DNA from: Phenylobacterium sp.
GTDB lineage: Bacteria; Pseudomonadota; Alphaproteobacteria; Caulobacterales; Caulobacteraceae
DNA length: 47,840 nt
Assembly (NCBI RefSeq): GCF_030651755.1
Contig: NZ_JAUSBZ010000150.1
Coordinates: forward strand, 1 to 47,840
Direction of reading: 5' to 3'
Shown: piece by piece, positions 1-14,734 of the stretch
Layout of the letters: the number at the start of each line of letters is the position of its first letter
Position numbering within the stretch: position 1 is the first letter of the stretch
Position numbers and translations under genes: made by a program
The notes under the pieces: model-generated
Seen by the model: only the letters and a program-made list of their open reading frames with translations
What the model was told of the DNA's origin: nothing
Databases searched by the model: none

Positions 1-2
1 CA

Positions 3-290
3 CGGCTGGGGCAAGCGGCCTATGCCGTCGCCCCTGCTCTCACCGAGCATTCGGTCGGGGCGGTCTTTCGTTGGCTGTTGGGAGGAGCAAAGCCGGCGCC
101 CACCACCGACGGCTCCCTGCTGGTCCCGATCCCAGAAGGCGTGGACACCAGCGGTCACTGGCTGGCCAGGAAGAAGCTGCCTTCGGCCCATGTTATCAGC
201 GGCGGCCTTGCGGCGATGGCTTTGGCGGGGCTGGCCGGGCTCACAGTGCGCCAACTCGCCAAGCGCGCGTCGCCCCATGACCCTCGATGA
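3..290 (+). CDS. C-terminal fragment of a probable short-chain dehydrogenase-like protein (5' truncated by window edge)
   Basis: The reading frame is open from the left edge and ends at TGA 288-290, leaving 95 residues. It reads as the tail of a longer protein. A run containing YAVAPALTEHSVGAVFRWLL is followed by a Pro/Asp-rich linker (VPIPEGVDTSG), then a hydrophobic segment (about 20 residues, rich in Ala/Leu/Gly) and a basic C-terminus, consistent with a C-terminal membrane anchor. SDR proteins of Caulobacterales can carry this kind of extension, and that resemblance is the only basis for the family call. The Rossmann core would lie outside the window, so the assignment is tentative. The coding frame itself is credible because of its GC3 bias and continuity. 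Confidence 0.45.
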   Translation, partial: RLGQAAYAVAPALTEHSVGAVFRWLLGGAKPAPTTDGSLLVPIPEGVDTSGHWLARKKLPSAHVISGGLAAMALAGLAGLTVRQLAKRASPHDPR

Positions 291-323
291 CGTCGGGAGA
301 CCCAGCGGCCTCCCGAGCTCAAC

Positions 324-533
324 TCAGCGATTGTCCCGGCCGCGCTGGTCCGGATTAGCGCCGCCACCCAACCCGGAGTCGTTCTTAACATCGCCTTCGA
401 CGGTGTTGTCGCCTTCAAGAGGCGCCAGCCCCTCGCGGCGGTTCAGGCCAGACGATTGCCCAATGCCAGGATTGCGCTCCAGGTCGTCCGGCGGATTGAC
501 GGGCTGGTTGTCAGGGTCAGGGTGCTTGCTCAT
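324..533 (-). CDS. Small hydrophilic hypothetical protein, 69 aa
   Basis: The protein begins MSKHPDPDNQPVNPPDDLER and is rich in Asp, Asn, Pro and Gly, with no hydrophobic segment or cysteine, so it is probably disordered and cytoplasmic. A good Shine-Dalgarno sequence (CGGAGG) lies 8 nt before the ATG on the minus strand, which supports real translation. It converges on the SDR-like fragment. No function is recognised. Short Pro/Asp/Gly-rich proteins of this look are common as lineage-specific hypotheticals in Caulobacterales; that is a general impression, not a homology claim. Confidence 0.5.
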   Translation of the reverse strand: MSKHPDPDNQPVNPPDDLERNPGIGQSSGLNRREGLAPLEGDNTVEGDVKNDSGLGGGANPDQRGRDNR

Positions 534-1030
534 CTCCAGGGCCTCCGTTCAGGTTCTGCTCTCGTCTGACGTGAACCAGACAGCCGCAGCGAGGTTCCAG
601 CTTCGGCTCCCTCGGCCGCCCTGGACGAGGAACTAGCCTTGAACGATCGGAGGAAGCACCGATGCCGAACGCTTTGTGATCGGCGGGCTGGTCGATGTGA
701 AAGAGCGCTAGCGCGTGCTGGACCAGATTCCGTCACCCTATGCCACGGCCTTGGCCACCACCTCACATTGAAAGTCGGCGCCACAGCGGAAGAAGGCGCG
801 CCTTTCGCCTCCAATCAGGCGGCGTGGGCCGCTGCGCCGCCTTCGATGTCAGTGGGTGCTCGGTTGACTTTAGGGGACGCTAACTGCCGTCCCCCGGACG
901 AGATCTCACCCCTGGGGGGCGTGATCCTGGCAGCGGCGACCGGCCCGCAGTGCGCGTCAAAGGGTCGATTGCTATTGGCGCCGATCGGGCGTCTGATGAC
1001 GGGCCCACATATGGCGTGACGGAGGCGCTC
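534..1030. other. Intergenic stretch without a convincing gene
   Basis: About 500 nt. Several overlapping open frames exist on both strands, but none has both a good start and coding-like composition. One short in-frame piece (about 645-708) reads GSTDAERFVIGGLVDVKER and then stops, without an initiation codon. It could be a gene remnant. Nothing else is supported. Confidence 0.4.
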
Positions 1031-1183
1031 ATGTCGCCTGCTGACCTCAAAAGGCTGAATGTCGAGCACTTCGAGCGCGTTCTTGCGCGGACCACAGACC
1101 TGACAGAGCGCGCGAAAATCGCCAGGTTCATTGTTGAAGAACTCGCCGAGCCAGATCGCGCCTACCCCGTCCCTCGTCCCTGA
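1031..1183 (+). CDS. Small helical hypothetical protein, 50 aa
   Basis: Starts MSPADLKRLNVEHFERVLAR and ends at TGA 1181-1183. GGAGG lies 5 nt before the ATG. It resembles the many short alphaproteobacterial proteins with an N-terminal pattern N-x-x-H-F-x-x-x-L followed by T/D-x-x-x-R-A-x-I-x-x-x-(I/L)-x-E-E, predicted as two amphipathic helices. Function is unknown. The frame stays open back to a GTG at 950, giving a 77-residue alternative, but only the ATG at 1031 has a good ribosome binding site. It lies just outside the putative att repeat at 1545, so it probably belongs to the flanking chromosome. Confidence 0.55.
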   Translation: MSPADLKRLNVEHFERVLARTTDLTERAKIARFIVEELAEPDRAYPVPRP

Positions 1184-1316
1184 CATCCAGCCGTTCAGGT
1201 TCATGCATATGTTCAGCGGCGGCCTTTCGTAAGCACGGGCAATCCTGGGCTCTTGCGATCTACAAGACCGCCGCGAGGCACGCCTCAAAGTGCAAGGCGC
1301 GCGCACGGCTAGAAAG

Positions 1317-1330
1317 GCGCGGGCCCGCGC
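1317..1330. terminator. GC palindrome with AT-rich 3' flank, possible terminator
   Basis: GCGCGGGCCCGCGC is perfectly self-complementary over 14 nt and is followed on the plus strand by TTATTATT. It could end transcription of the small gene ending at 1183. The T-run is interrupted and there is no real loop, so a protein-binding palindrome is equally possible. Confidence 0.25.
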
Positions 1331-1544
1331 TTATTATTCAGGGAACGCCAGCAATATCATGTATTGCGGACTTCATTTTTTTTCGGAGAGCCGAATTTTA
1401 TTTAAATAAGAAATCCGTATTTGAATTTTCACCCGTCTACCCGGGGCTCACCCGTCGCTTAATATTGGTGAGAAACGAAATTATCAGGATCCTTCCGCCC
1501 GTTTTTTCAGGGCACGATCTATACGATTACTTGCAAATAAACCT

Positions 1545-1569
1545 GCTGGTGGGCCCGGCAGGACTCGAA
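1545..1569 (-). repeat. Direct copy of the tRNA-Ile(CAT) 3' end (putative attL)
   Basis: These 25 nt are identical, in the same orientation, to 13,759-13,783, which covers the CCA end, acceptor 3' strand, T-stem 3' half and part of the T-loop of the tRNA-Ile(CAT) gene plus two bases outside it. Identity stops abruptly inside the T-loop. Duplicated tRNA 3' ends are the standard scar of tyrosine-recombinase integration, so this is the likely outer attachment site of the 12.2-kb segment between the copies. Other tRNAs share similar T-arm and acceptor sequences, so a remnant of another tRNA gene is an alternative. Confidence 0.55.
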
Positions 1570-1945
1570 ACGTCTGGAAATTATGTATTCCACACAGATA
1601 GTTAGGGCCTGCGCCCAGTAGACATACCCACACCTCTACCAACCGGGCCAAGAAGGTCGAATCTCGTGGAGCAGAAAACCCTGCCGGCGGCCACCACGAA
1701 CGGAAGGTCCGCAGCGGGCTCAATGGCGACCTTGGGAGAGTCCGCTTTTCGGCAGTCTGCGCAGTCGCTCCGAGAGGAGGCCAATCGATCCACAGCTCAG
1801 GGCGATGGTGACCGTCTGGCCTCGTGGTGAAGAAGCTCGGCCACCGTCGGCGTGGCTTCACCCACTCAGCACGAGAGATTTAGGCGCTTTCAACCTTTGC
1901 GAGCGACATCATCCGCGCTGACCTTATCAGATATGGAGGCCGAAC

Positions 1946-2416
1946 ATGCACTTCGGCAAACGCGTTACCCGTCCGGAAACAATCGCGCCCAATTTGACCA
2001 AGAACCGAATGTCGCTGCTGTCCTGCTTAGCGGGTACCGCCGTTTGTTGCGCAAGCTATATTGGGTTCTCGCCAGCAGTACTTGGCCTTGAAGCCCTCAC
2101 AGCCGACACGGTCGAAAGTTACAACCTTGGGCGGTTAATCTTATCCATGGCGGGTAGCCTGCCTATAATGGCGGTTGTATTTTTCGTTTCTATGCTCACC
2201 TCACAACTGCTACATATAAAATCACGCAACAGTACGGTGATTGTTTTTATCGCATTTCCCGCTCTTGTTGCTGTTCTAATTGTCTCAGCGATGCTGACAA
2301 TTCTGACGGGCAACCCTCCCGATGATCCATGGCTACCCATATTGGTCGCTATAGCTGCATCATCAGGCGGGTTGGCGATGAAGGTCACCCTCCTTCTTCG
2401 CGACACTCGCGGGTGA
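1946..2416 (+). CDS. Hypothetical membrane protein, four predicted TM helices, 156 aa
   Basis: Hydrophobic stretches at about residues 24-45, 63-90, 98-121 and 129-150 suggest a four-helix inner-membrane protein. There is a basic N-terminus (MHFGKRVTRPE) and an intercalated Lys/Arg-bearing loop (HIKSRN). GGAGG lies 6 nt before the ATG at 1946; a second Met at codon 22 could also start it. No family is recognised. Codon use is clearly less GC-biased than the rest of the window (many TTA, ATA, TTT codons), which supports recent acquisition. The next gene begins 104 nt downstream on the same strand, and the two may form a unit. Confidence 0.6.
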   Translation: MHFGKRVTRPETIAPNLTKNRMSLLSCLAGTAVCCASYIGFSPAVLGLEALTADTVESYNLGRLILSMAGSLPIMAVVFFVSMLTSQLLHIKSRNSTVIVFIAFPALVAVLIVSAMLTILTGNPPDDPWLPILVAIAASSGGLAMKVTLLLRDTRG

Positions 2417-2520
2417 AACCCAATTTCCGGAAGGTTGCCAAGAGGCGGTGCCTGGAAATGGCGCGAGATCGACCAAACGCCCAGTACTCCGAGCAGATTC
2501 GATGAAATGGGGAGCCCGCG

Positions 2521-3069
2521 TTGACATGTGTGCTGATTGGCCAAAGCGGCTGCGTGTTTGACTCATCCGCTACGGCTGCGTGGGCGCAAGCTTTCCTGAG
2601 CTTCGTGGCCATCGTCGTTTCGGGATATCTCGCCGCAAAGGTCGCGGGACGGCCAACGCTTACGGCCCGACACCAACGGCTTGCAGCGCTCTCTGGCTTG
2701 GTTGGCGTGGCCCGGCAGATAATTAAGGCAGCACAGGCGGAAGCAAGCGCTGTGGGCAATAGCACGTCGTCAAGCCCAGCCTTTGATCTCAACCGCTTCG
2801 ACCGTACGATCGACGCGCTGAAGACGATCCCTATCCTCGAGGTTTCGCCGGGCATTCTCGTAGAAGACCTGATCGAGCTCCAGGAAAACCTGACGTCAGC
2901 GCGCGACGAGATGGCAAAGCTGCTCCGTGACGCGCCTTCCGGCATAGGCGTCTACAACACCGCATTGTTCTACGAAGGGGCAAGGCGGCACGCCGAAGAA
3001 CTTGAGCGCAAACTGATTATCGAAGCGATGGCGGCAGCAAGGGCTGAACGCCGTTGGTGGCAACCCTGA
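2521..3069 (+). CDS. Hypothetical membrane-anchored protein, 182 aa
   Basis: TTG start with GGGGAG about 7 nt upstream. Residues about 20-42 (AWAQAFLSFVAIVVSGYLAA) form a single membrane helix. The remaining 140 residues are largely helical, with an acidic/basic heptad-like C-terminal part ending ERRWWQP, so a membrane-anchored cytoplasmic helical domain is likely. The N-terminal layout resembles short phage or mobile-element membrane proteins of unknown role, but no family is recognised. It probably forms a pair with the preceding four-helix membrane protein. The start is uncertain: TTG is the only in-frame start that retains the whole TM segment. Confidence 0.55.
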   Translation: MTCVLIGQSGCVFDSSATAAWAQAFLSFVAIVVSGYLAAKVAGRPTLTARHQRLAALSGLVGVARQIIKAAQAEASAVGNSTSSSPAFDLNRFDRTIDALKTIPILEVSPGILVEDLIELQENLTSARDEMAKLLRDAPSGIGVYNTALFYEGARRHAEELERKLIIEAMAAARAERRWWQP

Positions 3070-3224
3070 GCAGGTGCGGCGCCAATGCCGGGTTCCTGGA
3101 AAGGCCCGAACTTCCGCTAGGGGCGCATCCTTGCTGCCCGGTGCCCACCCCCACCCTCAACGGTAGCGAGGCTTAGGGATCGAGACGACCCTCTATGGCT
3201 TACCTCTGGCAATGCCCGTGCACA

Positions 3225-3848
3225 CTATCCCCCCAGAGCGGCCGTCACGAGGTAGCGCGCTGCTGACCCAGGACGGCAGCGGTCGAGCTCTGGGAAGGGG
3301 CCGACCCGCAGCACCCGAAATCCCGCACGCCCGAGCATGGCGGCCACCGGCTGCGCGCTGGACAGGGCGGCGAACGGCTGCCGTTGCAGAGCCTCGGAAC
3401 TCCAGGCCGCTTCGGGCCAAAACCCATCGACGAGCATGAGGCGTCCGTCCGGCGCAATCCACCGCCGCCAAGTTGAGAATGTCTCGAGGGGTTCAGTCAG
3501 GTGACACAACACCTGACGGCAGACAATCCAGTCGAACGTGCCCGGCGCGAAGAGATCCGTCGCGTCCGCTGAGCCGGCGACAAAGTCCTCGCGCGCCAAG
3601 TCTGGGTGGCTTGCGAGACCCTGTTTGATCATCGCCGATGATGGCTCAAGCCCCGTCACCAGAAGGCCTGCGGCCTTGAGGACACGGGTCAGCAATCCTG
3701 TGCCCGCGCCTATGTCGAGTACGCGGCCGGTGAGGTCTGCGTTGGCGAGCCGCCGCAGCTCAGCCAGCCAAAGCGTCCCCTCGCCTTCCGGCAGGGCGTG
3801 CTCATCTTCAGCCTCATACTGGGAGGCGACGGCTTGATCATAGCCCAT
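3225..3848 (-). CDS. Class I SAM-dependent methyltransferase, 207 aa
   Basis: Predicted to transfer a methyl group from S-adenosylmethionine to an unknown acceptor in the cytoplasm. Motif I is clear at residues 43-53 (VLDIGAGTGLL). An acidic motif II end (GLEPSS) and motif III/IV region (DWIVCRQVLCHL) follow at about 65-115, then LMLVDGFWPE. The layout is that of the Methyltransf_11/25 group (UbiE/COQ5-like, Rossmann core) and the length is normal. The C-terminal 60 residues probably form the substrate cap. It stands alone between the membrane gene pair and the TonB/ABC operon on the same strand as the latter, 290 nt downstream of it. No substrate can be inferred. Confidence 0.75.
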   Translation of the reverse strand: MGYDQAVASQYEAEDEHALPEGEGTLWLAELRRLANADLTGRVLDIGAGTGLLTRVLKAAGLLVTGLEPSSAMIKQGLASHPDLAREDFVAGSADATDLFAPGTFDWIVCRQVLCHLTEPLETFSTWRRWIAPDGRLMLVDGFWPEAAWSSEALQRQPFAALSSAQPVAAMLGRAGFRVLRVGPFPELDRCRPGSAARYLVTAALGG

Positions 3849-4138
3849 CGCTTGGCCTCGTCTGGATCGTCAAACCGCGTCCCGCCTCACGGAGCGGACG
3901 CGGGGGAACGGCTTCGCCACGGCAGGGGTTTGAGCGCCGCCGGATGGCCAGTCGTACCGATGGATCAGCCAAGTCGGCAATAGTCGACGGATCGTTGCCA
4001 ACTATGGCGGATGACGGTGCACAGCCCATCGGACGTGCTTGTGATTTATATCATAATAAAAAAACAGCCGAGCTTCAGGTCGTCGAGTTGTCTCGCCAGG
4101 GTGCGGACCTCGCCAGGACCTGTCTGGCGAACGGTGGC
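3849..4138. other. Intergenic stretch with AT-rich patch
   Basis: About 290 nt with no credible gene. It contains an AT-rich patch near 4040-4065 (TTTATATCATAATAAAAAAA), which on the minus strand would give a long T-run after the end of the TonB receptor operon and could help end its transcription, or could serve as a promoter for the methyltransferase. No clear hairpin precedes the T-run. Confidence 0.3.
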
Positions 4139-6175
4139 CTAGAACTTCCCGCTTATGGTCAGGCTGATGAACGCGGGCTTCCTTGTGCTCCGCCTCTCTA
4201 TCCGCAGGGGGGGCCCTGATCGTTCCTCAACGAAGAAGCTTCGCTTGCGCTTTGAACGCTGAACGTCGGCGTTCTTCAGCGCTAAGCGGAGACGAACAGG
4301 TTGGACGGCCGTCGTCTCAATGAAACCACCGAAATACCCGTAGGTGGTCGCCTCATCGATCTGGTCAAGAAAGTAGATCGCGCCTTCATTGATCGCCTTG
4401 TAGGTGAGGCCCCAGGCAAAGGGCCGGCCCGGCGGGTCATGACGGAACTCCAGGTCGATGTTTGGGGAGTAGACTTCTGACAGGGGACGGATCGCGCCTG
4501 TCAGCGGATCATCGAACTCGCTGTCGAATACGGAGCCTGAGCCGGTCAGGCGGGCGCCGGCCAGCAAAGGAGTCAGCGGCACGGTGAAGTTAAACTTGGC
4601 GCCGGTGACGACCGCATCGCCGGCATTGGCCAGACCAGGCGCGCCTGAGGGGAGCAAGATGATCTCCAGCACGTCGGAGCGGTGTTCGCGAAAGAGCTCT
4701 AGATTGACGGCCGTATCACCAGGCCCTCGCCAGTCCACCGAACCATACCAGCGCGTCGTCTGATCCGGCCCAAGATCTGGATTGCCGGCGTTCGCCGTCT
4801 GGTCATTCAGGTCGGCTGAGGCTGCAAAATCGCGGAAGTCGAGCTGTCCCACCGTGCGCCGGACGCCTGCCCTGACGAGGGTACGAGGCTGCGCCCGCCA
4901 GGCAATCGCCGCCGAAGGCTTGACGAAAGTGAAGCGCTGACGGCCTGTCGCGTCACCTCTGAGTGAGATCTCGGAGGTTTCCGCCGCCAGTCCGGCCTCG
5001 AACGACCAGCGGCGCGAAAGCGTCCAGTTCAGATTGGCGAAGACCTCACCTCGCAACTCTTCAACGACGACATTTGCGGCGGGCAAGGCGATAGGCGTCA
5101 GGCCTCCACCGTCGTCGAAAGCCAGATCGAGCTCGCTGTTAAGCCGGTTGTAGGCCAGCTCCCCACCGACTTCGGGCCGCAAGGCGCGAGCTTCGGCGGG
5201 CGTCGCCGTTGTCCGAATGATCGCCTCGAAGGCCTTGGTCTCGGCGGCAAGCGTACTCGCTGTCAGGCGGGTCCCGTCCGCAAGGTAGCGACCGTCGAAC
5301 TGCGCCTCGGAGTCGCCCTGCCCTGACGCCAGGCTGACGAGCTTCCAGTTCCAGCCAGAGACGTCCCTGGCATAGTCTGCGCCGACCTCAAAGGAGAGCC
5401 TGTCCCGGCCCAAGGTGGACATGAGCGCTTGGTCGGGGCCGCCCGTCGCCGGGCGGCCAAGCCACACCTCGCCTGGCTGCTCGAAGTGATAGTCATACCA
5501 CCCGAGCCGCCCGTTGAGGGTCAGGTCACCCGCGGCGAAGGGCCGACGCGCTTCGCCCGCGACATAGGCCTCGGCAAGGGTCGAGGGTAGATTGGTTTTT
5601 ACTACGGAGGTGAGCTGTCCCGCCGCATCACGCAGCACGCGCTCTCCTCGGAAGGGAAACTCCTCCCAATAGGCCCGCGCGCGAACCGAGGTCTCCCAAC
5701 CAGCGATACTGCGGGCATAACTGACCTCCCCCCGGGGATAGATCACGTTGTTGCCGTTCCGCTCCAGCTCGAGCGACCAGGTTCCGGAGGCCCCGCCCCG
5801 GACACGAACCACGTTCAGGATCAATGACTGCCCCTGCGCCTCGGCGGTAGCGGCGTTGCGGACGACATCGATGCGCTCCACCTGCGCAGCCGGAATGCGG
5901 GACAAGGCTTCGGAGATGCTTGACTTGGACGAGGGCCGGGCGCCATCGACCAGGACGTTCCCCCCGCCGGCTCCGAAGCCCCGCAATTCCTGGTCGCCGT
6001 CGTCTAGCGCGAAACCCGGGGTCCGCAACACCATGTCGAGCGCGCTCTGCGGACGGAACTGATCGTAGTAGTCATTGGGATAGCCCACCACATCCCGCGA
6101 CGGGGCCTGGGCCTCTACGGCCGTGCCGTAGTTCATGAGCCCCAGGACAACGGCTGAGACGCCCAGACGACGCAT
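4139..6175 (-). CDS. TonB-dependent outer-membrane receptor, 678 aa
   Basis: Outer-membrane 22-strand-barrel receptor that takes up a ligand using TonB energy. A signal peptide occupies residues 1-22 (ending VEA-QA). A plug domain spans about 35-140 (LDMVLRTPGFALDDGDQELRG, NVLVDGARPSSKSSISEALSRIPAAQVERIDVVR), and alternating amphipathic strands run to a C-terminal Phe (LTISGKF), as expected for BAM recognition. No TonB box was identified with confidence. The ATG overlaps the stop of the upstream ABC ATPase gene (TGATG), so the two are translationally coupled. It is the last gene of a five-gene operon that also starts with a TonB receptor. Having two receptors around one ABC system suggests two ligands or two routes. 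The ligand is unknown. Confidence 0.85.
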   Translation of the reverse strand: MRRLGVSAVVLGLMNYGTAVEAQAPSRDVVGYPNDYYDQFRPQSALDMVLRTPGFALDDGDQELRGFGAGGGNVLVDGARPSSKSSISEALSRIPAAQVERIDVVRNAATAEAQGQSLILNVVRVRGGASGTWSLELERNGNNVIYPRGEVSYARSIAGWETSVRARAYWEEFPFRGERVLRDAAGQLTSVVKTNLPSTLAEAYVAGEARRPFAAGDLTLNGRLGWYDYHFEQPGEVWLGRPATGGPDQALMSTLGRDRLSFEVGADYARDVSGWNWKLVSLASGQGDSEAQFDGRYLADGTRLTASTLAAETKAFEAIIRTTATPAEARALRPEVGGELAYNRLNSELDLAFDDGGGLTPIALPAANVVVEELRGEVFANLNWTLSRRWSFEAGLAAETSEISLRGDATGRQRFTFVKPSAAIAWRAQPRTLVRAGVRRTVGQLDFRDFAASADLNDQTANAGNPDLGPDQTTRWYGSVDWRGPGDTAVNLELFREHRSDVLEIILLPSGAPGLANAGDAVVTGAKFNFTVPLTPLLAGARLTGSGSVFDSEFDDPLTGAIRPLSEVYSPNIDLEFRHDPPGRPFAWGLTYKAINEGAIYFLDQIDEATTYGYFGGFIETTAVQPVRLRLALKNADVQRSKRKRSFFVEERSGPPLRIERRSTRKPAFISLTISGKF

Positions 6176-6873
6176 CAGGCCATCTCGCCCAGATAGAGCG
6201 CCTCAAGTTCAGTGGCGCTGATTTCGGAGGCCGGGAGCTCTCGGCGCAACACGCCGCCCCGCATGATACCGACCCGGCTGGCTACGTCTCTGGCGCGGAA
6301 GATGTCGTGGGTCGCCATCAGCACCGCCACACCCCCTAGCGCCAGTTTCTCGAGGAGGCGGCTGAACTCGTAACTGGCGCTCGGGTCCAAACCACTGGTC
6401 GGCTCATCAAGGAGCAGGCCGCGCGCATGTTTGGCGAGGGCGATCGCCACACCGACCTTTTGCCGCATACCTTTGGAGTAGCCGGAGATGCGCTGATCGA
6501 AGGCCTGTTCCTGCAAGCCAGCCTCGGTCAGCAGCGAGCGCCTCTCCGCGGCGGTCGTTCTGCGTCCGCCCAGCTCGGCGAAATAGGCAAGATTCTCGTC
6601 GCCACTGAGCTGAGGATAAAGGTTCACCTGTTCGGGGATATAGGCGAGCAGGGCGCGCGCGCCCTGAGGGTCAATGGCTGGATCGACGCCATCGACCAGC
6701 ACACGTCCACCGTCCGGCGTGACGAAACCTAGAAAGCAGTTGACGGTCGTCGTCTTGCCCGCCCCGTTGGGACCCAACAGGGCATAGACCTCACCGGCAT
6801 CGACCCTGAGATCCAAGGACTGCAGAGCGACGTGGTCGCCGAACCGCTTGTGCAGCTTTTCCGCTATCAGCAT
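6175..6873 (-). CDS. ABC transporter ATP-binding protein, 232 aa
   Basis: Cytoplasmic ATPase subunit energising the two permeases encoded just upstream. Walker A is GPNGAGKTT (about 36-44), the Q-loop lies in the AYIPEQVNLYPQ region, the signature is SGYSKGMRQK (about 133-142), Walker B plus D-loop is GLLLDEPTSGLD, and the H-loop is MATHD. It resembles the NosF/CcmA-type ATPases that work with ABC-2 permeases. The ATG at 6873 was chosen because it begins the conserved MLIAEKLHKRFG fold start. The frame is open upstream to 6954, but that part overlaps the permease gene and lacks family character. The gap to the permease stop is 10 nt, and the stop overlaps the next ATG. Confidence 0.9.
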   Translation of the reverse strand: MLIAEKLHKRFGDHVALQSLDLRVDAGEVYALLGPNGAGKTTTVNCFLGFVTPDGGRVLVDGVDPAIDPQGARALLAYIPEQVNLYPQLSGDENLAYFAELGGRRTTAAERRSLLTEAGLQEQAFDQRISGYSKGMRQKVGVAIALAKHARGLLLDEPTSGLDPSASYEFSRLLEKLALGGVAVLMATHDIFRARDVASRVGIMRGGVLRRELPASEISATELEALYLGEMA

Positions 6874-6883
6874 CTGTATTCCC

Positions 6884-8329
6884 CTAAGGCCCCGCCCTGC
6901 GAAGGCGCATCCACGCAAGAGCCGCCGCCAACAGGAAGCCGGCCAACAGCCCACCTAAGGGCGTGATCGCCCGCACAAGGCGAACCGCCCCGGCCTCAGA
7001 CACCGGGCTGGCCGTTGGGAGATCGTCATAGTCAGCCAAGGTGAGCGATCGACGGCTGGCGAGTTTCACATCAAAGCGCTCGCGCCAGGCCGCCTGAAAT
7101 TGCTCGGTCGCGTCGAAGGCGGCTAGCCGGCGCTCCGGGGCGAATCCTGCAAGATCATCGGTCAACCGTTTGATCATCAGCGGCGGGCTGAGAAAGGCCG
7201 CCAACCGGAGGCGGCGCGCCTGGGCTACCTGCCTGACGTGAATCTCCCTGGCGTGTGGGAAGAAGACTTGGTCCAACACCACCTGACGCGGGTAATAGGT
7301 CTCTACGAAATACTCCTCGTACTCGCTGAACGGGCCACGGACGGGCCGTCGCTCAGGATTCGCCCCGTAGTAGGTCTCGCGAACCTCGGCGCTGCGTTCG
7401 GCGAGGTCGTTCTGTAGGGCGCGGTACTGGAGCACATAGGTTAGGCGGTCTGGAGCCGCCGCCCCGACCGCAACCCATTGGGCCGCCAAAACGGGCGTCA
7501 CGAGCGAGAGGGTGATCCAGATCGTCAGGAGGGCGACGCCGGCGGCTGCGGCATGCCGCAGCCGCGCATTCAAGCTTGCCGACAGGGCCAGCCAGAAGCC
7601 GATATAGAGCCCAAGCGACCCCAGCCAGACGACGAGGTCGGGCAGGTTGTGCACGAGTTGGTCGAGCGGCGCGGCTGCGACGACTCCGGCCGTGGCGATG
7701 CACCCGATGACCCCAAACGTCGCCAGAAAGACAACCCCCAGCCTTCCAAGGACGATCTTGCTCAGCGGCGTTCCGCTGCTGGCGATCAAGGGCGAAATCT
7801 GAGTCTCGCGATCGCCGGCCAGGACATCGTAGCTGAGGACAAGGAGAACGATCGGCAGCAGCCACGCGACCACGAAGATGAGGTCGAGAGGGCCATCAAC
7901 CCGGTTGGTTGGGTTTTCAATGGTCTCGTTTTGCTGGCCGTATCGACTGGCCATTGAGACCGCAATGATGTCGTTCCCCTCTCGGGCCGGTCCCGCCGAT
8001 AGGGGCGCAAGGGCGCCCGGCGGCGTGACGACAGGGGCCTTGTGGCTCATCACCACGAGGTCGGCACGGGCTGGATTGACAAACATGCCCGTCTCGATGC
8101 GCCCCGCCTGAAGATCGATGAAGGCTGCACGCTTCTGAGCCCAGGTCTCCGCGTGCTGCTCCAACGCTACAGCCTGATGGGCGCGGGTCTCCAATGTCCG
8201 GATCGTGCCCCCAAAAACCGCCCAGCCCGAGATCAACGCAAGCGCAATGATCAGGGCGACGGAAAGCGGCGTCGCCAGAAACGTCCGCGTTTCCAGGACG
8301 AGCAAACGGCCAAGTCGGGCGCCGCTCAT
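6884..8329 (-). CDS. ABC-2 type permease, DUF3526-like, 481 aa
   Basis: Inner-membrane permease partner of the downstream ATPase. One N-terminal TM helix (about residues 15-37) precedes a large extracytoplasmic segment. A block of about five helices follows (about 165-330), then a second soluble segment containing ETYYGANPERRP and a final helix at the C-terminus (LGGLLAGFLLAAALAWMRLRR). This split layout, two helix sets around a long periplasmic domain, fits the DUF3526/NosY-related permeases. The ATG at 8329 overlaps the stop of the first permease (ATGA), which decides the start over the longer open frame. The two permeases share their architecture and probably form a heterodimer. Substrate is unknown. 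Confidence 0.8.
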   Translation of the reverse strand: MSGARLGRLLVLETRTFLATPLSVALIIALALISGWAVFGGTIRTLETRAHQAVALEQHAETWAQKRAAFIDLQAGRIETGMFVNPARADLVVMSHKAPVVTPPGALAPLSAGPAREGNDIIAVSMASRYGQQNETIENPTNRVDGPLDLIFVVAWLLPIVLLVLSYDVLAGDRETQISPLIASSGTPLSKIVLGRLGVVFLATFGVIGCIATAGVVAAAPLDQLVHNLPDLVVWLGSLGLYIGFWLALSASLNARLRHAAAAGVALLTIWITLSLVTPVLAAQWVAVGAAAPDRLTYVLQYRALQNDLAERSAEVRETYYGANPERRPVRGPFSEYEEYFVETYYPRQVVLDQVFFPHAREIHVRQVAQARRLRLAAFLSPPLMIKRLTDDLAGFAPERRLAAFDATEQFQAAWRERFDVKLASRRSLTLADYDDLPTASPVSEAGAVRLVRAITPLGGLLAGFLLAAALAWMRLRRAGP

Positions 8330-9744
8330 GGGCGTAGCCTTTGTGCTGCGAATGCAAGAAGCCCCAGGGCCCCAAACAGCCACGCCACCAGGATGGAAAC
8401 CGCCGGCCACTGGGCGCGAAGCGCCCAGCCAAGCCCTGGCTCCTGATAGGTGAACGGCGGGGCGAGCGCCCATGTCTCCCGCCCGGCATTCATTTCCCAG
8501 GCCTGGCCACGGGTCCCCGCCACGATGGCCTCGTTCATCTGGACGTTGAAGGCGCGGCGATACTCTTCCGCAGCCGCCGCAAAATGCTGGTAGTGCGCCC
8601 AATCCATCCCGGCAAATCCATGGGATGCCGCTCGCGCCGCCAGATAGGGCGCAAAAACACTGAGCACAGTCCGGATCTGCTGTTGGCGGTCGTAGGTTGC
8701 GAGCAGCTGCGCGTGATGCCGGTCGGCGACCTCGTTGGTCCAGGCGTCCATCGCCTGCATCCGTAGACCGGAGAAGCCCACCGGCGCCTCATCGAGCGAG
8801 GACAGGCCGTACTCGGCCTTCACGCTGTCTTCGAGCGCCGCGAGTTGGTCGTCCCAGCCTGGTCTCTCGCCATAACCGCCGTTGAACTCGTCGCGAATAA
8901 CCGACGCGTAAACTGCCGCATCAGGCGTCGGGGCGATCCGCAAGGTCAGAAGCGAGGCGGCCCGCGGGGCTAGAACCGATCCCGCCACCCACAAGCTCAA
9001 CACGACGACAAGGGCGCCCCGCGACGTGCGAGAAAAGGCCGACACCGCCACGCCGATGGCCAGCAGGCCGAGCAGGTAGACAAGGGTCGCGCCAAGCGCC
9101 GCCGCCGTGCGCCCGATCGCCGCCCAGACGGCGCCTTCAGCGGCGGCCCAGGCCGTAGTGGCGATAAGCAAGATGGCGAACGGGACAAGCGGAAGCAGAA
9201 GGGCCGCCACCAGCCCAAGACACTTGCCGCCGATCCAGCGGCGCGGGGAGATCCCTTGGGCCAGGATCTGCCGCATGACCCCGGTCTCGCGGTCCCGCGC
9301 CACCGACAACGCGCCCAACACCATGGCGAACAGCCCCCCGAGCAATTGCAGGAGGGCGGCGCCGCTCGTCTCCCCAAGGCCAGGGGAAGCGGTCAGATCA
9401 TCGTCGGCAGGCGCATGCGAGAACGCCGCATTGCTGTGGGCTTGCAGCCAAAGCGTGCGACCGGCGAATGGCCGCAGACCGGGCTCGAAGACCGCCAGTG
9501 GGGTCTCTGGTTTGGCGACGTACATGCCGTAGGCGGCGGCCCGGTGCGGGTGCTTTGGTCCTTGGTTCAGCCACTGGGCGTAGGACTCCTCAGCAAACCT
9601 CACGCGTTGGGCCTCGCCCTTCTCGTACTGCGCCCAGCCGACAACGGTCGCCGCCGAGAGCAACAGCAAAAGCAACAGAGCCGCTATTGCCAAGCGGCCG
9701 TCTCTGAGCTGAAGCTGAAGTTCACGCCGGGCGACGGAGAGCAC
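8326..9744 (-). CDS. ABC-2 type permease, DUF3526 family, 472 aa
   Basis: Inner-membrane permease. A TM helix at about residues 18-40 (ALLLLLLLSAATVVGWA) is followed by a periplasmic segment, a helix cluster at about 125-265 that includes the conserved block GALSVARDRETGVMRQILAQGISPRRWIGGK, a long periplasmic domain (about 270-430) and a last helix near the C-terminus. The ARDRETG...Q.L..G.S.....GK block is typical of ABC-2/NosY-like permeases, and the C-terminal half resembles DUF3526. Start is GTG at 9744, 11 nt after the stop of the upstream TonB receptor; the Shine-Dalgarno is weak. It is translationally coupled to the second permease. Proteins of this class handle substrates that are usually unknown. 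Confidence 0.8.
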   Translation of the reverse strand: MLSVARRELQLQLRDGRLAIAALLLLLLLSAATVVGWAQYEKGEAQRVRFAEESYAQWLNQGPKHPHRAAAYGMYVAKPETPLAVFEPGLRPFAGRTLWLQAHSNAAFSHAPADDDLTASPGLGETSGAALLQLLGGLFAMVLGALSVARDRETGVMRQILAQGISPRRWIGGKCLGLVAALLLPLVPFAILLIATTAWAAAEGAVWAAIGRTAAALGATLVYLLGLLAIGVAVSAFSRTSRGALVVVLSLWVAGSVLAPRAASLLTLRIAPTPDAAVYASVIRDEFNGGYGERPGWDDQLAALEDSVKAEYGLSSLDEAPVGFSGLRMQAMDAWTNEVADRHHAQLLATYDRQQQIRTVLSVFAPYLAARAASHGFAGMDWAHYQHFAAAAEEYRRAFNVQMNEAIVAGTRGQAWEMNAGRETWALAPPFTYQEPGLGWALRAQWPAVSILVAWLFGALGLLAFAAQRLRP

Positions 9745-9755
9745 CGAGCGGGACC

Positions 9756-11816
9756 CTAGAAGCTGTAGGTGGCGCGAAGCGTGGCCGCCCGCGGTTCCTG
9801 CGGCAGGATCGTCGTGCCGGTGAGATCGTAGATCTTCTCGTCGCCGAGATTGCGGATATTGAGCTGCAACTCGACGTCGCCGAAATCGTAGGCCGCCATC
9901 ACATCGACCCGTGTGTAACTCGGAAGTGTCCAGGCATTGTTGGGGAGCGCTGCCTGACGGTCATCAACATAGTAGGCCCCGGCCCCAACCGCCCAGCCAG
10001 TGAGCGGCCCCTCCAGGAACTCATATTTTGTCCAGACGCTCGCGCTCCATTCGGCCGCGCCCGGCAGCTTCGAGCCCACGGCGATGCGGTTGTCCTTTGA
10101 CACCTCGGCATCGATCCAGGAGGCGCTGGCGATCAGGTCCCAACCGGGCGTCAGTTCGCCCGACACATCCAGTTCGACGCCGCGCGAGCGTTGCTCGCCG
10201 GTCTGGACGCGGAACATCGGGTTGGTGGGGTCGGGCGTGGAGACATTCTCCTTTCGGATCTCGTAGAGCGCCACGCTGACCTTCGCCTTGCCGCCCAGAA
10301 GGTCCTGTTTGACACCGACCTCAACCTGCTCGCCCGTCTCGGGTTCGAGGTTCTCACCTCCCAGTGTGCGGCCACTGGTGATCGGCACGAAAGAGCGGCC
10401 ATAACTGGCATAGAGGCTCGTCGCGTCGCTCGGCTGATAGACGACCCCAATCTGAGGACTGATCGCATCATCGCGGCTGTCACGAACCAAGGCGCCTGTC
10501 ATCAGGTTGACGCTGCGGTTGTCGACCTGATCGTAGCGAACACCGGCCAGGATGTTCCAGCGGGAGCCGATCTTGATAAAGTCCTGAATATAGAGCGCCT
10601 TGGCGTCAGCATTCAGCTGATCAGCAAACAGCCGGAAGCCGGGCTCAGGGCGAGCGCCATAGACCGGCGCAAACAGGTCGATCGAGGCAAGGGGCTGAAG
10701 CAGGAAGTCATAGGCCTGCTTGGTCCTGTATTGTTCAACACCAACCGTCAGCTTGTGCTGAAGTTGGCCCGTTTCAAATGCGACCAGAAGATCAACCTGA
10801 AGGTTGTCAACCATGCTCTTTTCGTCGGTGGCGTAGGCTACTCGGGACACGGTCCGGCCGTTTGTGATCGCCAAGGGCGAGCGCAAATTATAGTCCCCGT
10901 CGGTCTCGGAGTGGCCCAACACAGCCCGTAGGCGCAGAGCATCTGAGAAGGCGTGCTCAAGGGTCGCCGAGGTGAAGATCGACTGAACGTCGTTCACGCC
11001 GTTGGCCTCGCCCAGGAACCTCTCGATAGGAACCGCAAAGCTGACAGGGCTGCGCGGCAGTCCCAGGTCCCAGACGAACTCGCTCTGCTTGTACTCGGCC
11101 TCCAAGGTCAGCTTCGTGCGCTCAGCGATATTGAAGGCCACGACGGGGGCCAGAAATTTGCTGCTGGAAGTCACCTCATCGCGATAGCTGCCATTATCTT
11201 CATAAGCGCCGTTGAGGCGAAAAGCTGCGCGGTCACCGAGCGCGCCCCCAAGGTCGACCTCTCCGCGATAGCGCTCGAAGCTGCCCACCAGGGCCCGAAC
11301 GCGACCGAAGGAATCCGGCGTGGGCTGCTTGGTGACGGTATTGGTGATGCCGCCTGGATTGACTGCGCCGTAAAGAATGGAGGCCGGTCCTTTCAAGACC
11401 TCGAAGCGTTCTACATTGGCGATGTCGCGGAGGGTGTAGAAGCCCGGATCTCGCAGACCATTGCGAAGCGTCAGAAATGATTGGTCGAAGCCGCGAATGA
11501 ACGCGCCAAAATTCTGCGTGCCGCCATAGCCCATCTTGCGCTGAGCGCCCGAGACGTTGTCCAACGCCTCCCCCAGCTGGGTGATTCCGCGGTCCTCGAT
11601 CAGTTCCTGCGGCACGACGCTGACTGAGAGCGGCAGGTCGTCAAGGAGCACCGGGAAACGAAGGCCGGTCACGGTGTCTGCTGCGCTGTAGTTTTCCACA
11701 GGACGCGCGGTGACAAGCAATTCCGCCACCGACGCTACGTCGTCTGCCGCCTGGCTGCCGCTGGCCGTCGCAAGGGTAAACAAACCCGCGCCGATGAACA
11801 AACCCGTCCGAAACAT
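9756..11816 (-). CDS. TonB-dependent siderophore-type receptor, 686 aa
   Basis: Outer-membrane receptor of the FhuA/FcuA-like siderophore-receptor group and first gene of the operon. A signal peptide covers 1-23 (SGSQAADD). A plug follows (LDDLPLSVSVVPQELIEDRG, FIRGFDQSFLTLRNGLRDPGFYTLRDIANVERFEVLKGPASILYG, GGITNTVTKQPTPDSFGRV). The barrel carries the receptor hallmarks YGRSFVP and NLEPETGEQVEVGVKQDLLGG and ends in a terminal Phe (LRATYSF). A palindrome resembling a Zur box lies 28 bp upstream of the ATG and overlaps a plausible -10, so repression by a Fur-family regulator, most likely Zur, is inferred. Siderophore-type receptors can also import other metal chelates, so zinc-chelate uptake is possible. 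Confidence 0.88.
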   Translation of the reverse strand: MFRTGLFIGAGLFTLATASGSQAADDVASVAELLVTARPVENYSAADTVTGLRFPVLLDDLPLSVSVVPQELIEDRGITQLGEALDNVSGAQRKMGYGGTQNFGAFIRGFDQSFLTLRNGLRDPGFYTLRDIANVERFEVLKGPASILYGAVNPGGITNTVTKQPTPDSFGRVRALVGSFERYRGEVDLGGALGDRAAFRLNGAYEDNGSYRDEVTSSSKFLAPVVAFNIAERTKLTLEAEYKQSEFVWDLGLPRSPVSFAVPIERFLGEANGVNDVQSIFTSATLEHAFSDALRLRAVLGHSETDGDYNLRSPLAITNGRTVSRVAYATDEKSMVDNLQVDLLVAFETGQLQHKLTVGVEQYRTKQAYDFLLQPLASIDLFAPVYGARPEPGFRLFADQLNADAKALYIQDFIKIGSRWNILAGVRYDQVDNRSVNLMTGALVRDSRDDAISPQIGVVYQPSDATSLYASYGRSFVPITSGRTLGGENLEPETGEQVEVGVKQDLLGGKAKVSVALYEIRKENVSTPDPTNPMFRVQTGEQRSRGVELDVSGELTPGWDLIASASWIDAEVSKDNRIAVGSKLPGAAEWSASVWTKYEFLEGPLTGWAVGAGAYYVDDRQAALPNNAWTLPSYTRVDVMAAYDFGDVELQLNIRNLGDEKIYDLTGTTILPQEPRAATLRATYSF

Positions 11817-11843
11817 TGGAGACCCCCCGAGGAAGCCGGAAGC

Positions 11844-11861
11844 GTTAAGTTATAACATTAC
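11844..11861. promoter_or_regulatory. Putative Zur box (18-bp palindrome) upstream of the TonB/ABC operon
   Basis: The minus-strand sequence GTAATGTTATAACTTAAC is symmetric at 14 of 18 positions around the perfect core GTTATAAC. This closely matches the GTAATGTTATAACATTAC-type operators known for Zur in alphaproteobacteria; that match is from memory and was not computed. It lies 28 bp before the start codon of the first receptor gene. A TTGTGA / TATAAC pair could act as -35 and -10, so the box would occlude RNA polymerase. No gene starts close by on the other side, so the operon is the only evident target. Confidence 0.6.
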
Positions 11862-12185
11862 GACTCACAAGCGCCCGATTGTCTCGACCGCCTCTTTTCC
11901 CCTCTATGACCCCCTTTGTGCACGGTCGAGACCAAGGTCTGCCCTCCTGGAAGGACTCAGACATGGCCCGCGCGTGGTTGTGGTGACCGATAGATCGGCT
12001 TCGGGACCGCGATGATGGCGGGCATGATCGAGCGACAGTACGCGGTCGTATCGACCGTGCCTGGATCGATCACGGCCTCGCCATTAAGCTCACGGCGCCT
12101 GGCACCATCGAACCCGCCCCGGCCTGACGGTCGGTGCTCTGTGCCCGCTCGTTCAAAACAGGCGAAGTTGCTTAATCAGCCGCTG
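11862..12185. other. Intergenic stretch without a supported gene
   Basis: About 320 nt between the operon promoter and the frameshifted gene. It contains open frames such as one giving ...RIDRAWIDHGLAIKLTAPGTIEPAPA before a stop near 12,127, which has coding-like composition but no good start. It may be the tail of a degraded gene. Nothing firmer is seen. Confidence 0.3.
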
Positions 12186-12508
12186 ATGACGCCGGACGGG
12201 CGGTACATTGTGGTTCGAGGCCGGCTATGGCGCGCCATCAATCCGGGGCTCGCATCAGAGGTGCGTGCGCAGCTTGTACAGGATCTGATGACCGCGCGGC
12301 GCGATGTCCGATCCGCGCGCCGGAAGCCGACCGTACCGCCCTCGCTGACGCTGGCTTCAGGGTGGAGACCGCGAAGATCGGCTTGGGTGAGCGGGGCCCG
12401 GTACGGTGGGAAGACGGCGCGCCCGAGCTTAACCGGCGAATGGCCCGGACGACGCCCTATGCGGAATGGTCTCGGGCGGTCGAGCCCAAGGGAGCAGCGA
12501 CGGCTTAG
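12186..12508 (+). pseudogene. Frameshifted small conserved hypothetical gene
   Basis: The first part in frame 3 (MTPDGRYIVVRGRLWRAINP...TARRDVRSAR, from ATG 12186) and the second part in frame 2 (PEADRTALADAGFRVETAKIG..., stop at 12508) together give one continuous protein. It resembles a small alphaproteobacterial family with the blocks GRYIVVRGRLWR.TNP, KIGLGERGPV.W.DGAP and NTPYAEW. The frame changes within the GC-rich run at about 12,317-12,325 (CGCGCGCCGG), a place where either a true indel or a sequencing/assembly error is likely. If real, the gene is inactivated. Function of the family is unknown. No clear ribosome binding site was seen. Confidence 0.65.
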
Positions 12509-12639
12509 GCGTCAAGTATGGCTCCGGGTGGCCGGCCCCCTCAGACGCGCGATAGGGGCAGCAATTTAGCAAGGTGGACAGCTGAGGCCGGAACGGCTCG
12601 TGCGGGCAGTCGTTGATCTGGCCAGGCAGGAGCTTCCAC

Positions 12640-13050
12640 ATGAAAATTTCTGACGTAATGAGCCGCGCCCCCCAAGTCGCCAAACCCAGCGACACGATCG
12701 CGGCCGTTGCGCGCCGCATGTCGGAGATCGACTCCGGCGTGCTGCCGGTCGTTGAGGGCGACGAGATCGTTGGGGTAATCACGGACCGCGACATCGTTAT
12801 CCGGGTGGTCGGCGAGGACCGCGACAACGAGATCTGCGTCTCGGAGGTCATGACCTCACCAGTCGTGACCTGCGTCGAAAGCGAGAGCCTCAAGGTCGCA
12901 ACCAAGAAGATGGCGGAGTTGCAGATGCGGCGGATGGTCATCGTCGACGGGGCGGGCAAGCTGGTCGGCATCCTGTCGCTGGGGGACGTCGCGCGCGAGG
13001 ACTCGGCCAGGACGGTCGGGCACACCCTGGAAGACATCTCCGAAGGCTGA
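12640..13050 (+). CDS. CBS-domain pair protein, 136 aa
   Basis: Two tandem CBS domains fill the protein: about residues 5-62 (VMSRAPQVAKPSDTIAAVARRM ... GVITDRDIVIRVV) and 70-130 (EVMTSPVVTCVESESLKVATKKM ... LVGILSLGDVARED). Such pairs (Bateman modules) bind adenosyl ligands such as AMP, ATP or NADH and sense energy or stress. Stand-alone copies are common stress proteins. The ATG at 12640 has AGGAG 8 nt upstream and begins the domain exactly (MKISDVMS), so it is preferred over the upstream ATG at 12613. No partner gene is adjacent. A short hairpin (13,119-13,137) lies 68 nt after the stop. Confidence 0.88.
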   Translation: MKISDVMSRAPQVAKPSDTIAAVARRMSEIDSGVLPVVEGDEIVGVITDRDIVIRVVGEDRDNEICVSEVMTSPVVTCVESESLKVATKKMAELQMRRMVIVDGAGKLVGILSLGDVAREDSARTVGHTLEDISEG

Positions 13051-13760
13051 ACTGTCGCGGCGTCGCCTACCTCTATTGGCCTCTTTGCGGGGCTCGAGTG
13101 TCCCTGGATGGCTAGGTAACGGGGCAGGTCGCCCCGTAGGTCGCCTCAATGAGACAGCGTCTGCAAGGTGTCTGGCGCGGATCTGGAAGTGGGCTCCGGC
13201 TGGAGATGGAGGCCATGGCCATTCCTGAGAAGCTTGGCCCCACCTAAGTCAGATCCAGAATGATGGGCGAACAGTTGTCGAGGCCATCCCGGCCGCCGCA
13301 CCCGCATCGACAGCTGCTCCACCTGCCCCGCCGCTCCAGAGGCTGCTGATGGAGGAGCTCCAGTTGAGGTCGATTCCGCCCGACCGAGCGGGCTCGTCCT
13401 GCGCCCGCGTTGGCAGCCTCCCATCGCACTGTAGGATTAGCGCGGGGCGCGCCTGGGCGGCGCTCCCGGGCTGGCGCTCCCGGGCTGGCGCTCAAGCTAC
13501 CACTGCGGGAGGCGGGTCAAGCCGGTGCTGCACTAAGGACGAATCAAGGGACTTGCCGACACCTACGCCCATCGACACACACTATTAAGATGATTTAATA
13601 ATTTGGAGCGCGCAGACAATATAATAACAGCATTGTGGCGCACACTATAGATGACCTAAAGTGCAAACATGCGCTCCGCTCGCTTTGTGCAACCGATACT
13701 ACACTAATTTGCGGACTGTCGTTACTTTTACAATGCGCCGCGTGCAAGTAAGACTTCCGC
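13051..13760. other. 710-nt decayed region between the CBS gene and the tRNA, AT-rich at its right end
   Basis: No credible gene. It contains a hairpin ACGGGGC-AGGTC-GCCCCGT (13,119-13,137), a short ATG frame of 32 codons (13,149-13,247, MRQRLQGVWRGSGSGL...), a tandem repeat (13,461-13,498) and an AT-rich tract at about 13,570-13,750. An integrase gene would be expected next to the tRNA if the segment to the left is an integrated element. None is readable, so it may have been deleted or degraded here. Confidence 0.5.
13461..13498. repeat. 14-nt tandem repeat, 2 full copies plus a partial third
   Basis: The unit CGCTCCCGGGCTGG occurs at 13,461-13,474 and 13,475-13,488, followed by CGCTCAAGCT. 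It lies in non-coding DNA and contains the palindrome CCCGGG. It is probably a replication-slippage product. Confidence 0.7.
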
Positions 13761-13836
13761 TGGTGGGCCCGGCAGGACTCGAACCTGCAACCAGACCGTT
13801 ATGAGCGGCCGGCTCTAACCATTGAGCTACAGGCCC
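13761..13836 (-). tRNA. tRNA-Ile (CAT anticodon, lysidine type)
   Basis: Folds as a complete 76-nt tRNA with encoded CCA: acceptor GGGCCTG/CGGGCCC, D-arm with GGTTA loop, anticodon stem GGCCG/CGGTC, loop CTCATAA, and T-stem GCAGG/CCTGC with loop TTCGAGT. The anticodon is CAT. The loop context CUCAUAA and body resemble the minor isoleucine tRNA whose C34 is changed to lysidine by TilS to read AUA, rather than initiator or elongator Met tRNA. The 3' end faces left and is copied at 1545-1569, so it is the probable integration site of an accessory element. Confidence 0.92.
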
Positions 13837-13984
13837 CATCAGCGGAGGGCTTGCGGTTAGCATGGGCTGCACGCAGCTTAAAGCTCCGGTTCAGGTTCAG
13901 CTTGCGAGGGTGGAACGTGTCGGCTGTCGCGAGGGTTCTCGCTGTGGCCTATGGTCAAGTTTCAAACGGACTGGGAGATCCCCT

Positions 13985-14734
13985 ATGAAGACCCTATTGC
14001 GCGCTGGCGTGCTCAGCCTGAGCCTGGCGGCCCTCGCCCCCGCCGCTCTGGCTCAGACAGCGCCTGCGCCGGCCGCCCCCGCGGCCGACTCCATGTTCCG
14101 TGCCACCACTCTCAACCTGTCGGGCATGGGCGAGGTCGATGTGGCGCCCGACATGGCGATGATCAGCCTGGGCGTGCAGACCGAGGCCCCCACCGCCCAG
14201 GCGGCCATGCAGGCCAATGCGCAGCAGATGACCCGGGTGATGGCCGCGCTCAATCGGGCGGGCATCCAGGCGCGCGACATCCAGACGTCCAATCTCAATC
14301 TGAGCGCACAGTACGACTATGTTCAGAACGAGCCCCCTCGCCTGCGGGGCTATCAGGCCAGCAACCAGGTGACGGTGAAGGTCCGTGACCTGGCCCGCCT
14401 CGGCGCAGCCGTCGACGCCACGGTCAATGCCGGCGCCAACCAGATCAACAGCATCAGCTTTGGCCTGAACGACCGCAGCCAGGCCGAGAACCAGGCCCGC
14501 CAGGCCGCCGTCCGCGACCTGCAGGCCAAGGCCCAGCTCTACGCCCAGGCCACCGGCTACCGGGTCGGCCGCCTGGTGACCCTGAGCGAGGGCGCGACCT
14601 ATTCGGCGCCGCAGCCGCCCATGCCCTACATGGCCATGGCCCGGGCCGAGAGCATGAAGGACTCCACGCCGGTCTCCGGCGGCGAACTGACCGTGCGGGT
14701 GGATGTTTCAGGTCTCTATGAACTAACCCGTTAG
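13985..14734 (+). CDS. SIMPL-domain (DUF541) periplasmic/secreted protein, 249 aa
   Basis: A classical signal peptide occupies residues 1-23 (MKTLLRAGVLSLSLAALAPA-ALAQ), followed by a Pro/Ala linker. The SIMPL/DUF541 domain then runs from about 42 to the end: LNLSGMGEVDVAPDMAMISLGVQTEAPTAQAAM, a NAQQMTRVMAALNRAGIQARDIQTSNLNLSAQYDY block, and the NQVTVKVRDLARLGAAVDATVNAGANQINSISF block. Proteins of this family (E. coli YggE-like) are periplasmic, linked to oxidative-stress tolerance, and form oligomeric rings. GGGAG precedes the ATG by 8-9 nt, and this start gives the signal peptide, unlike the longer frame from 13,862. It converges with the lipoprotein/panD pair. Confidence 0.88.
   Translation: MKTLLRAGVLSLSLAALAPAALAQTAPAPAAPAADSMFRATTLNLSGMGEVDVAPDMAMISLGVQTEAPTAQAAMQANAQQMTRVMAALNRAGIQARDIQTSNLNLSAQYDYVQNEPPRLRGYQASNQVTVKVRDLARLGAAVDATVNAGANQINSISFGLNDRSQAENQARQAAVRDLQAKAQLYAQATGYRVGRLVTLSEGATYSAPQPPMPYMAMARAESMKDSTPVSGGELTVRVDVSGLYELTR

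Follow-up and report, generated by a model that had tools for sequence, protein, structure and literature searches.

The Locus and Its Direct Repeat

We analyzed a stretch of 47,840 bp from Phenylobacterium sp. (the window), which is all of C163, one of the 164 contigs of the 3.24-Mb genome G000; position 1 is a contig end. It contains a single tRNA gene with a CAT anticodon, printed by ARAGORN as "Met," which we take to be tRNA-Ile2. The 3′ end of this gene is repeated 12.2 kb away, and the segment between the two copies (1545–13783), a candidate genomic island inserted at the tRNA, is the subject of this report. The copies, at 1545–1569 and 13759–13783, are 100% identical over 25 nt and have the same orientation. 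The 23-nt motif within them occurs exactly twice in the window (1547–1569 and 13761–13783), and none of 100 shuffles gave a match. Across the whole genome, a 21-nt search allowing up to 3 mismatches found two exact copies and one with 3 mismatches; the repeat, already pointed out in a first-pass annotation of this DNA, therefore has no further exact copies in G000.

The same motif is widespread in the genus. A 24-nt form is present in 91 of 101 genus genomes (G000 included), 11 of which have more than one copy, and variant AGGAGCCC copies in G008, G001, and G095 were left out of these counts. The 23-nt core is preceded by GC in all 15 distal copies listed, the window's among them; thus, the shared unit is the 25-nt repeat, which we treat as the attachment (att) core. 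In G019 and G047, the tRNA variant of the respective genome is found in both att copies. In G008 and G001, a variant repeat, TGGTGGGCCCGGCAGGAGCCCAA, is located 1.3 to 1.9 kb away from the tRNA; G095 has it as well (L031, L032, L082). This repeat might represent an att copy that is older or used in a different way.

The DNA between the two copies differs in composition from the core genes to its right. Its GC content is 0.631 (1570–13758), compared with 0.679 in 13837–47840, and the tetranucleotide distance is 0.227 to 0.315 in six overlapping 4-kb windows (starts 1 to 10001, the first taking in the left flank), against a maximum of 0.217 among 16 core windows. These values agree with the lower-GC, accessory interior that the first-pass annotation had described, and its account of the gene content also stands: family scans identify a methyltransferase, TonB receptors, an ABC ATPase, DUF3526 permeases, and a CBS protein (Table 1). 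To judge from these families, the transport operon within 3225–11816 looks like iron-chelate or siderophore-type cargo. The second permease was matched in 21 of 100 other genus genomes, with a best identity of 52% (G011) and the remaining matches mostly at 30 to 34% identity or confined to short pieces, so we consider the operon accessory. A distant relative of it (33%) lies about 4.7 kb to the left of an att copy in G080. The CBS-domain gene is solitary, close to the right end, and opposite in direction to the transport operon.

Table 1. Features of the tRNA locus and the adjoining segment
Feature	Position	Strand	Basis or remark
Left flank, with a 50-aa open reading frame (ORF) at 1031–1183	1–1544		Pieces of 818–1207 conserved in G092, G095, G073
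Distal att copy: tRNA 3′ end, 23 nt plus 2 nt outside the tRNA	1545–1569	−	Motif and DNA searches
Candidate arm-type integrase site pair	1625–1643		TACC at 1625 and 1637, 12 nt apart
Hypothetical gene in low-GC stretch 1570–3224 (GC 0.577)	1946–2416	+	No family above cutoff
Hypothetical gene	2521–3069	+	No family above cutoff
S-adenosylmethionine-dependent methyltransferase	3225–3848	−	Family scan
TonB-dependent receptor	4139–6175	−	Family scan
ABC transporter ATPase	6175–6954	−	Family scan
ABC-2 type permease with DUF3526; overlaps neighboring gene	6884–8602	−	Listed start probably too early
ABC-2 type permease with DUF3526 (second)	8326–9744	−	Family scan
TonB-dependent siderophore receptor	9756–11816	−	TIGR01783, 365.6 bits, cutoff 223.5
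CBS-domain protein	12613–13050	+	Family scan
AT-richer right end (GC 0.606); integrase position in relatives	13051–13758		Composition and translated search
tRNA-side att copy	13759–13783	−	Motif and DNA searches
tRNA, anticodon CAT, read as tRNA-Ile2; intact, integration target	13761–13836	−	ARAGORN
SIMPL (DUF541) gene, nearest to the tRNA on its right; the two are collinear in relatives	13862–14734	+	

Boundaries in Related Genomes

To place the right boundary, we compared the window with 67 named loci retrieved by means of the SIMPL protein (blastn, E values up to 1e-5). No locus (0 of 67) had a match starting to the left of 13700. In the seven closest named loci, homology runs rightwards from 13750–13757 at 78 to 90% identity, and it likewise begins at this boundary in the loci of G095, G080, G059, and G092. 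To the right of the tRNA, six relatives (G073, G080, G092, G095, G096, G059) are 82 to 90% identical to the window. On the other, 3′ side of the tRNA, the DNA mostly varies from one genus member to the next among the 18 compared (over up to 20 kb; less than 1 kb in three of them), and a few pairs share stretches there, one example being G008 and G001 (865 bp at 92%).

The left boundary is marked by a second block of similarity. Positions 962–1184 are 87% identical to G095, 1014–1167 are 78% identical to G092, and 1014–1122 are 75% identical to G073. In G092 and G073 this left-flank stretch is followed by an att copy, as in the window. Past the att copy, similarity to the window ends at 1718 for G092 (71%) and at 1584 for G073 (90% of 40 nt), and the DNA further inside differs among all three; behind the G073 copy lies a 2.3- to 3.0-kb module that is 94 to 96% common to G059, G017, G080, and G096. 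No relative locus compared has a match at the DNA level to 1719–13749. The sequence is therefore shared to the left of 1545 and to the right of the tRNA and not in between, which is the pattern expected for an exchanged segment with fixed ends. The output of tblastx looked mostly like composition noise except for the G095 and G092 matches and the related G080 operon.

Integrases at the Same tRNA

Integrases were detected with the PF00589 profile, a regular-expression motif search having been uninformative. The profile has no match on the window contig, in line with the first-pass statement that no integrase is visible. In relatives, an integrase of 418 aa lies beside this tRNA. This sister integrase has arm-binding, central, and catalytic domains (Pfam Arm-DNA-bind_3, Phage_int_M, and Phage_integrase), and presumably belongs to the P4 type. 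Integrases at least 62% identical to it are present in 11 of 101 genus genomes, and in 10 of these 11 the match ends 124 to 175 bp from the tRNA. The eleventh, in G017 (L085 around 8464, C216), adjoins an att-like site with 4 changes instead of the tRNA; possible causes are a mis-assembly or insertion into a secondary site.

The integrase gene has two stops in G115 and one TAG each in G073, G059, and G017; a frame of 416 aa is open in G059. Four further genomes, G045, G068, G104, and G108, have only integrase fragments (38 to 63% identity) beside the tRNA, and G056 has fragments next to a distal att copy. The integrase also appears to have moved between species. The proteins of G080 (L062:12320-13576) and G095 (L081:6918-8174) are 100% identical, and the integrase segments of the two genomes are 98.6% identical, against 81.5% for the core to the right of the tRNA, which suggests a recent transfer; in G080, the integrase segment and the core are on different contigs, both ending at the tRNA.

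Five att-bounded segments share a contig with the tRNA (with part of it, in G080). Four of them lack a PF00589 match inside, namely those of G000 (12.2 kb), G019 (34.1 kb), G047 (15.6 kb), and G087 (3.5 kb). The fifth, a 67-kb segment of G080 running from a distal att copy to the tRNA, encodes an integrase, a TrwC relaxase (E value of 3.9e-80), an RND-type efflux system, and a multicopper oxidase. It also carries a Fic protein (C31; L061, L118, L119, L062). The first 485 nt of the G073 contig with the tRNA and the integrase match part of the G080 relaxase gene at 95% identity. Near the same tRNA in G059, G095, and G092 (L077, L081, L083) are likely defense genes, encoding a TIR protein, an nSTAND3 protein, a PRTase-type protein, and a HamB-like helicase.

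Arm-Type Sites

The distal end of the window carries a candidate pair of arm-type sites. Two TACC motifs start 56 nt inside the att core, as in the copies of G092, G080, and G059, and they form the only such pair in the 47,840 bp. Of 12 relative copies (a count that omits the distal copies of G017 and of G087 contig C627), 7 have a pair with the same 12-nt spacing at 34 to 56 nt inside the core, the expectation being 0.0009 pairs per 110 nt, calculated from a background in which these pairs are themselves included. The ends of nine relatives and of the window align at the arm sites, the G073b end being gapped over one of them.

A further set of sites lies beside the integrase. Counted from the tRNA end, GTTGGTAT, GTTGGTAT, and GTACCAAC stand at −174, −153, and −133 in G080 and in the G073 locus L121; variants of these tRNA-side sites occur in G092. 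The window has no arm-type site within 300 nt on the tRNA side; within the same distance, G047 and L125 also have none, and G019 and G087 have one each. The missing tRNA-side sites suggest that the island is now immobile.

Origin and Classification of the Island

Taken together, these results make it very likely that 1545–13783 is a 12.2-kb island that entered at the tRNA-Ile2 3′ end through a P4-type tyrosine integrase and later lost the integrase and tRNA-side arm sites, leaving a remnant similar to a cis-mobilizable element (CIME). An integrative element at this tRNA had been proposed from the repeat and the gene content; the shared outer flanks, the integrase of relatives, and the arm-type sites at the left copy now support it. 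In this model, insertion into the CAT tRNA, at its 3′ end, would have been by site-specific recombination through a tyrosine integrase of the P4 type. A fuller element, with an integrase and perhaps a relaxase, would have integrated here and would then have lost its integrase, any transfer genes, and the arm sites on the tRNA side. The outcome would be a CIME-like remnant carrying siderophore-type transport cargo. Self-excision would no longer be likely, and any movement would require that a sister element bringing the right integrase insert itself next to the island. The earlier suggestion of an immobilized island fits the absence of both the integrase and the tRNA-side arm sites, and we conclude that the island is probably decayed and immobile.

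This kind of island is already known, and the window is a well-supported example of it. In the portions of PMC5704250 and PMC7563491 consulted, CIMEs are decayed elements that keep attL and attR without integration or transfer genes, and their accretion with sister elements is described. As far as those portions go, the island resembles the CIMEs of Streptococcus in several respects: it keeps both att sites, contains cargo, has no integrase or transfer genes that we could find, lies at a 3′ gene end that sister elements use, and measures 12.2 kb, compared with 1.2 to 13 kb for the classical CIMEs of S. salivarius (PMC5704250, PMC7563491). It differs in that it also lacks tRNA-side arm sites and that no sister element adjoins it on the contig. 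Descent from an integrative and conjugative or integrative and mobilizable element (ICE or IME) is proposed from the integrase and relaxase of relatives and not from the island's own genome, and neither the integrase nor the relaxase that an ICE or IME would have was detected in the island. Other known types fit in part. The target logic is that of P4-type tRNA islands, with an integrase beside the tRNA in relatives and none in the window. The duplicated tRNA 3′ end at the far boundary is a feature of autonomous tRNA islands, yet the integrase that these have beside the tRNA is missing. The 67-kb segment of G080 has the same tRNA, the same 25-nt core, and a distal att copy; unlike the window, it has an integrase and a relaxase, and its cargo differs.

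Several observations weigh against this explanation. The first-pass annotation had expected a single-copy site in some relatives, but when window positions 1–1600 were compared with the 101 genus genomes, none joined the left flank directly to the tRNA; for lack of such an empty site, the left flank is not proven to be original chromosome. Its other expectation, a tyrosine-recombinase remnant in 13,051–13,760, also failed, as a translated search there with the sister integrase (tblastn) gave nothing better than an E value of 14. The best local tblastn match in 1–13900 has an E value of 0.20 and lies to the left of the island, compared with 0.66 for a reversed-sequence control. Only relatives show a relaxase (G080, and part of one in G073): no remnant was detected in the window, and a scan of 1570–13758 that covered 7 identified genes and 4 other ORFs found no relaxase or type IV secretion system Pfam domain. 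In addition, the left-flank stretch of G095 has no att copy after it in a search allowing up to 5 changes, and 5 of 12 distal copies in relatives lack a strict arm pair. Finally, the compared genomes are drafts, several of them metagenome assembled, and the G080 tRNA is split across two contig ends.

One locus of G096 (L122) first seemed to be an empty site, as its 3.4 kb contain nitrate-assimilation-like genes next to the tRNA and lack an att copy. We dropped this reading because contig C106 of G000 has the same genes, continuing into genes whose translations read as core, and because G096 has two att-like copies on another contig.

Alternative Explanations

The island may be one unit of a longer tandem array, in which the DNA to the left of 1545 would be another att-bounded unit that continues on contig C154, the chromosome lying further left. 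This possibility, which adds to our explanation and does not exclude it, has in our view somewhat less than an even chance. The conserved left-flank pieces of G092, G095, and G073 lie beside a segment read as nitrate respiration (nar), a label taken from the translations, not from a family scan. Most of this nar-like segment (about 30 kb) lies between att copies 39.0 kb apart in G059 and 30.8 kb apart in G092, with no PF00589 match between them (L058, L059, L064, L065). The segment may thus be a second att-bounded block, and its flanking att copies in these two genomes suggest that the island may be one block of an array. Contig C154 of G000 (L115) is homologous to the nar-like segment, its ends not being visible, and the two att-like copies of G096, with one mismatch each, are 4.0 kb apart on a contig other than that of the tRNA. 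On the other hand, the G095 stretch lacks a following att copy, and the link is itself inferred: the window contig ends at position 1, and C154 is about 5.5 kb short compared with G059.

A bolder and rather improbable view is that the tRNA-Ile2(CAT) locus is a cassette-exchange site, where one integrase family, acting on the 25-nt core and the TACC arms, would reshuffle integrase-less, att-bounded blocks between species. Most of these blocks, for nitrate respiration, siderophore transport, efflux, and defense, would move without carrying an integrase, in a manner loosely resembling an integron on a tRNA end.

We also think it unlikely that the island is still mobile, excising at the 25-nt copies with an integrase supplied in trans or, once a sister element has accreted, in cis. 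Both att cores are intact, and integrase-less units are common here, as the four segments above illustrate. Yet the window lacks arm-type sites within 300 nt of the tRNA side, where G080 and G073 have three, and the only listed relative of the sister integrase in G000 (contig C55) is 34% identical.

It is very improbable that the left copy, instead of being an att site, belongs to an old tRNA gene or stems from tRNA duplication. Its sequence is that of the tRNA over 23 of 25 nt, and the arm site resembles a D-loop, a likeness that prompted a tRNA-like reading of the left end. The 106-nt stretch there folds better than most shuffles (z score of −2.33), as does the end of one relative (−2.95), but the end of another scores 0.00. 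Rfam gave no tRNA match with an E value up to 10 in 1480–1720 or in two relatives' ends, ARAGORN finds no tRNA at the left copy, and past the core, the ends of the nine relatives and the window align with one another in the arm sites and not with the tRNA. We reject a tRNA-like structure at the left end on the folding, Rfam, and alignment results, which contradict one of the cases that the first-pass annotation had named as refuting its proposal. A chance repeat in fast-diverging but otherwise ordinary chromosome would account for the variable DNA at the tRNA 3′ side in most of the 18 genus members, but it is scarcely credible given the shuffling result, the integrases adjoining this tRNA in relatives, and a homology that starts, in the closest relatives, at the tRNA end or within 8 to 11 nt of it.

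Implications

What began as a conjecture from sequence is now an island of defined extent, its target and ends known and a candidate integrase family identified. A limited search of the open literature found no description of this integration locus; integrases at the dusA gene are reportedly, from its title, the topic of a published study (PMC4482086). Within the genus, the tRNA end is an integration site in use, as an integrase adjoins the tRNA in 10 of 101 genomes and integrase fragments do so in 4 more. Integrase-less, att-bounded units at a single locus would make island accretion and decay testable outside Streptococcus.

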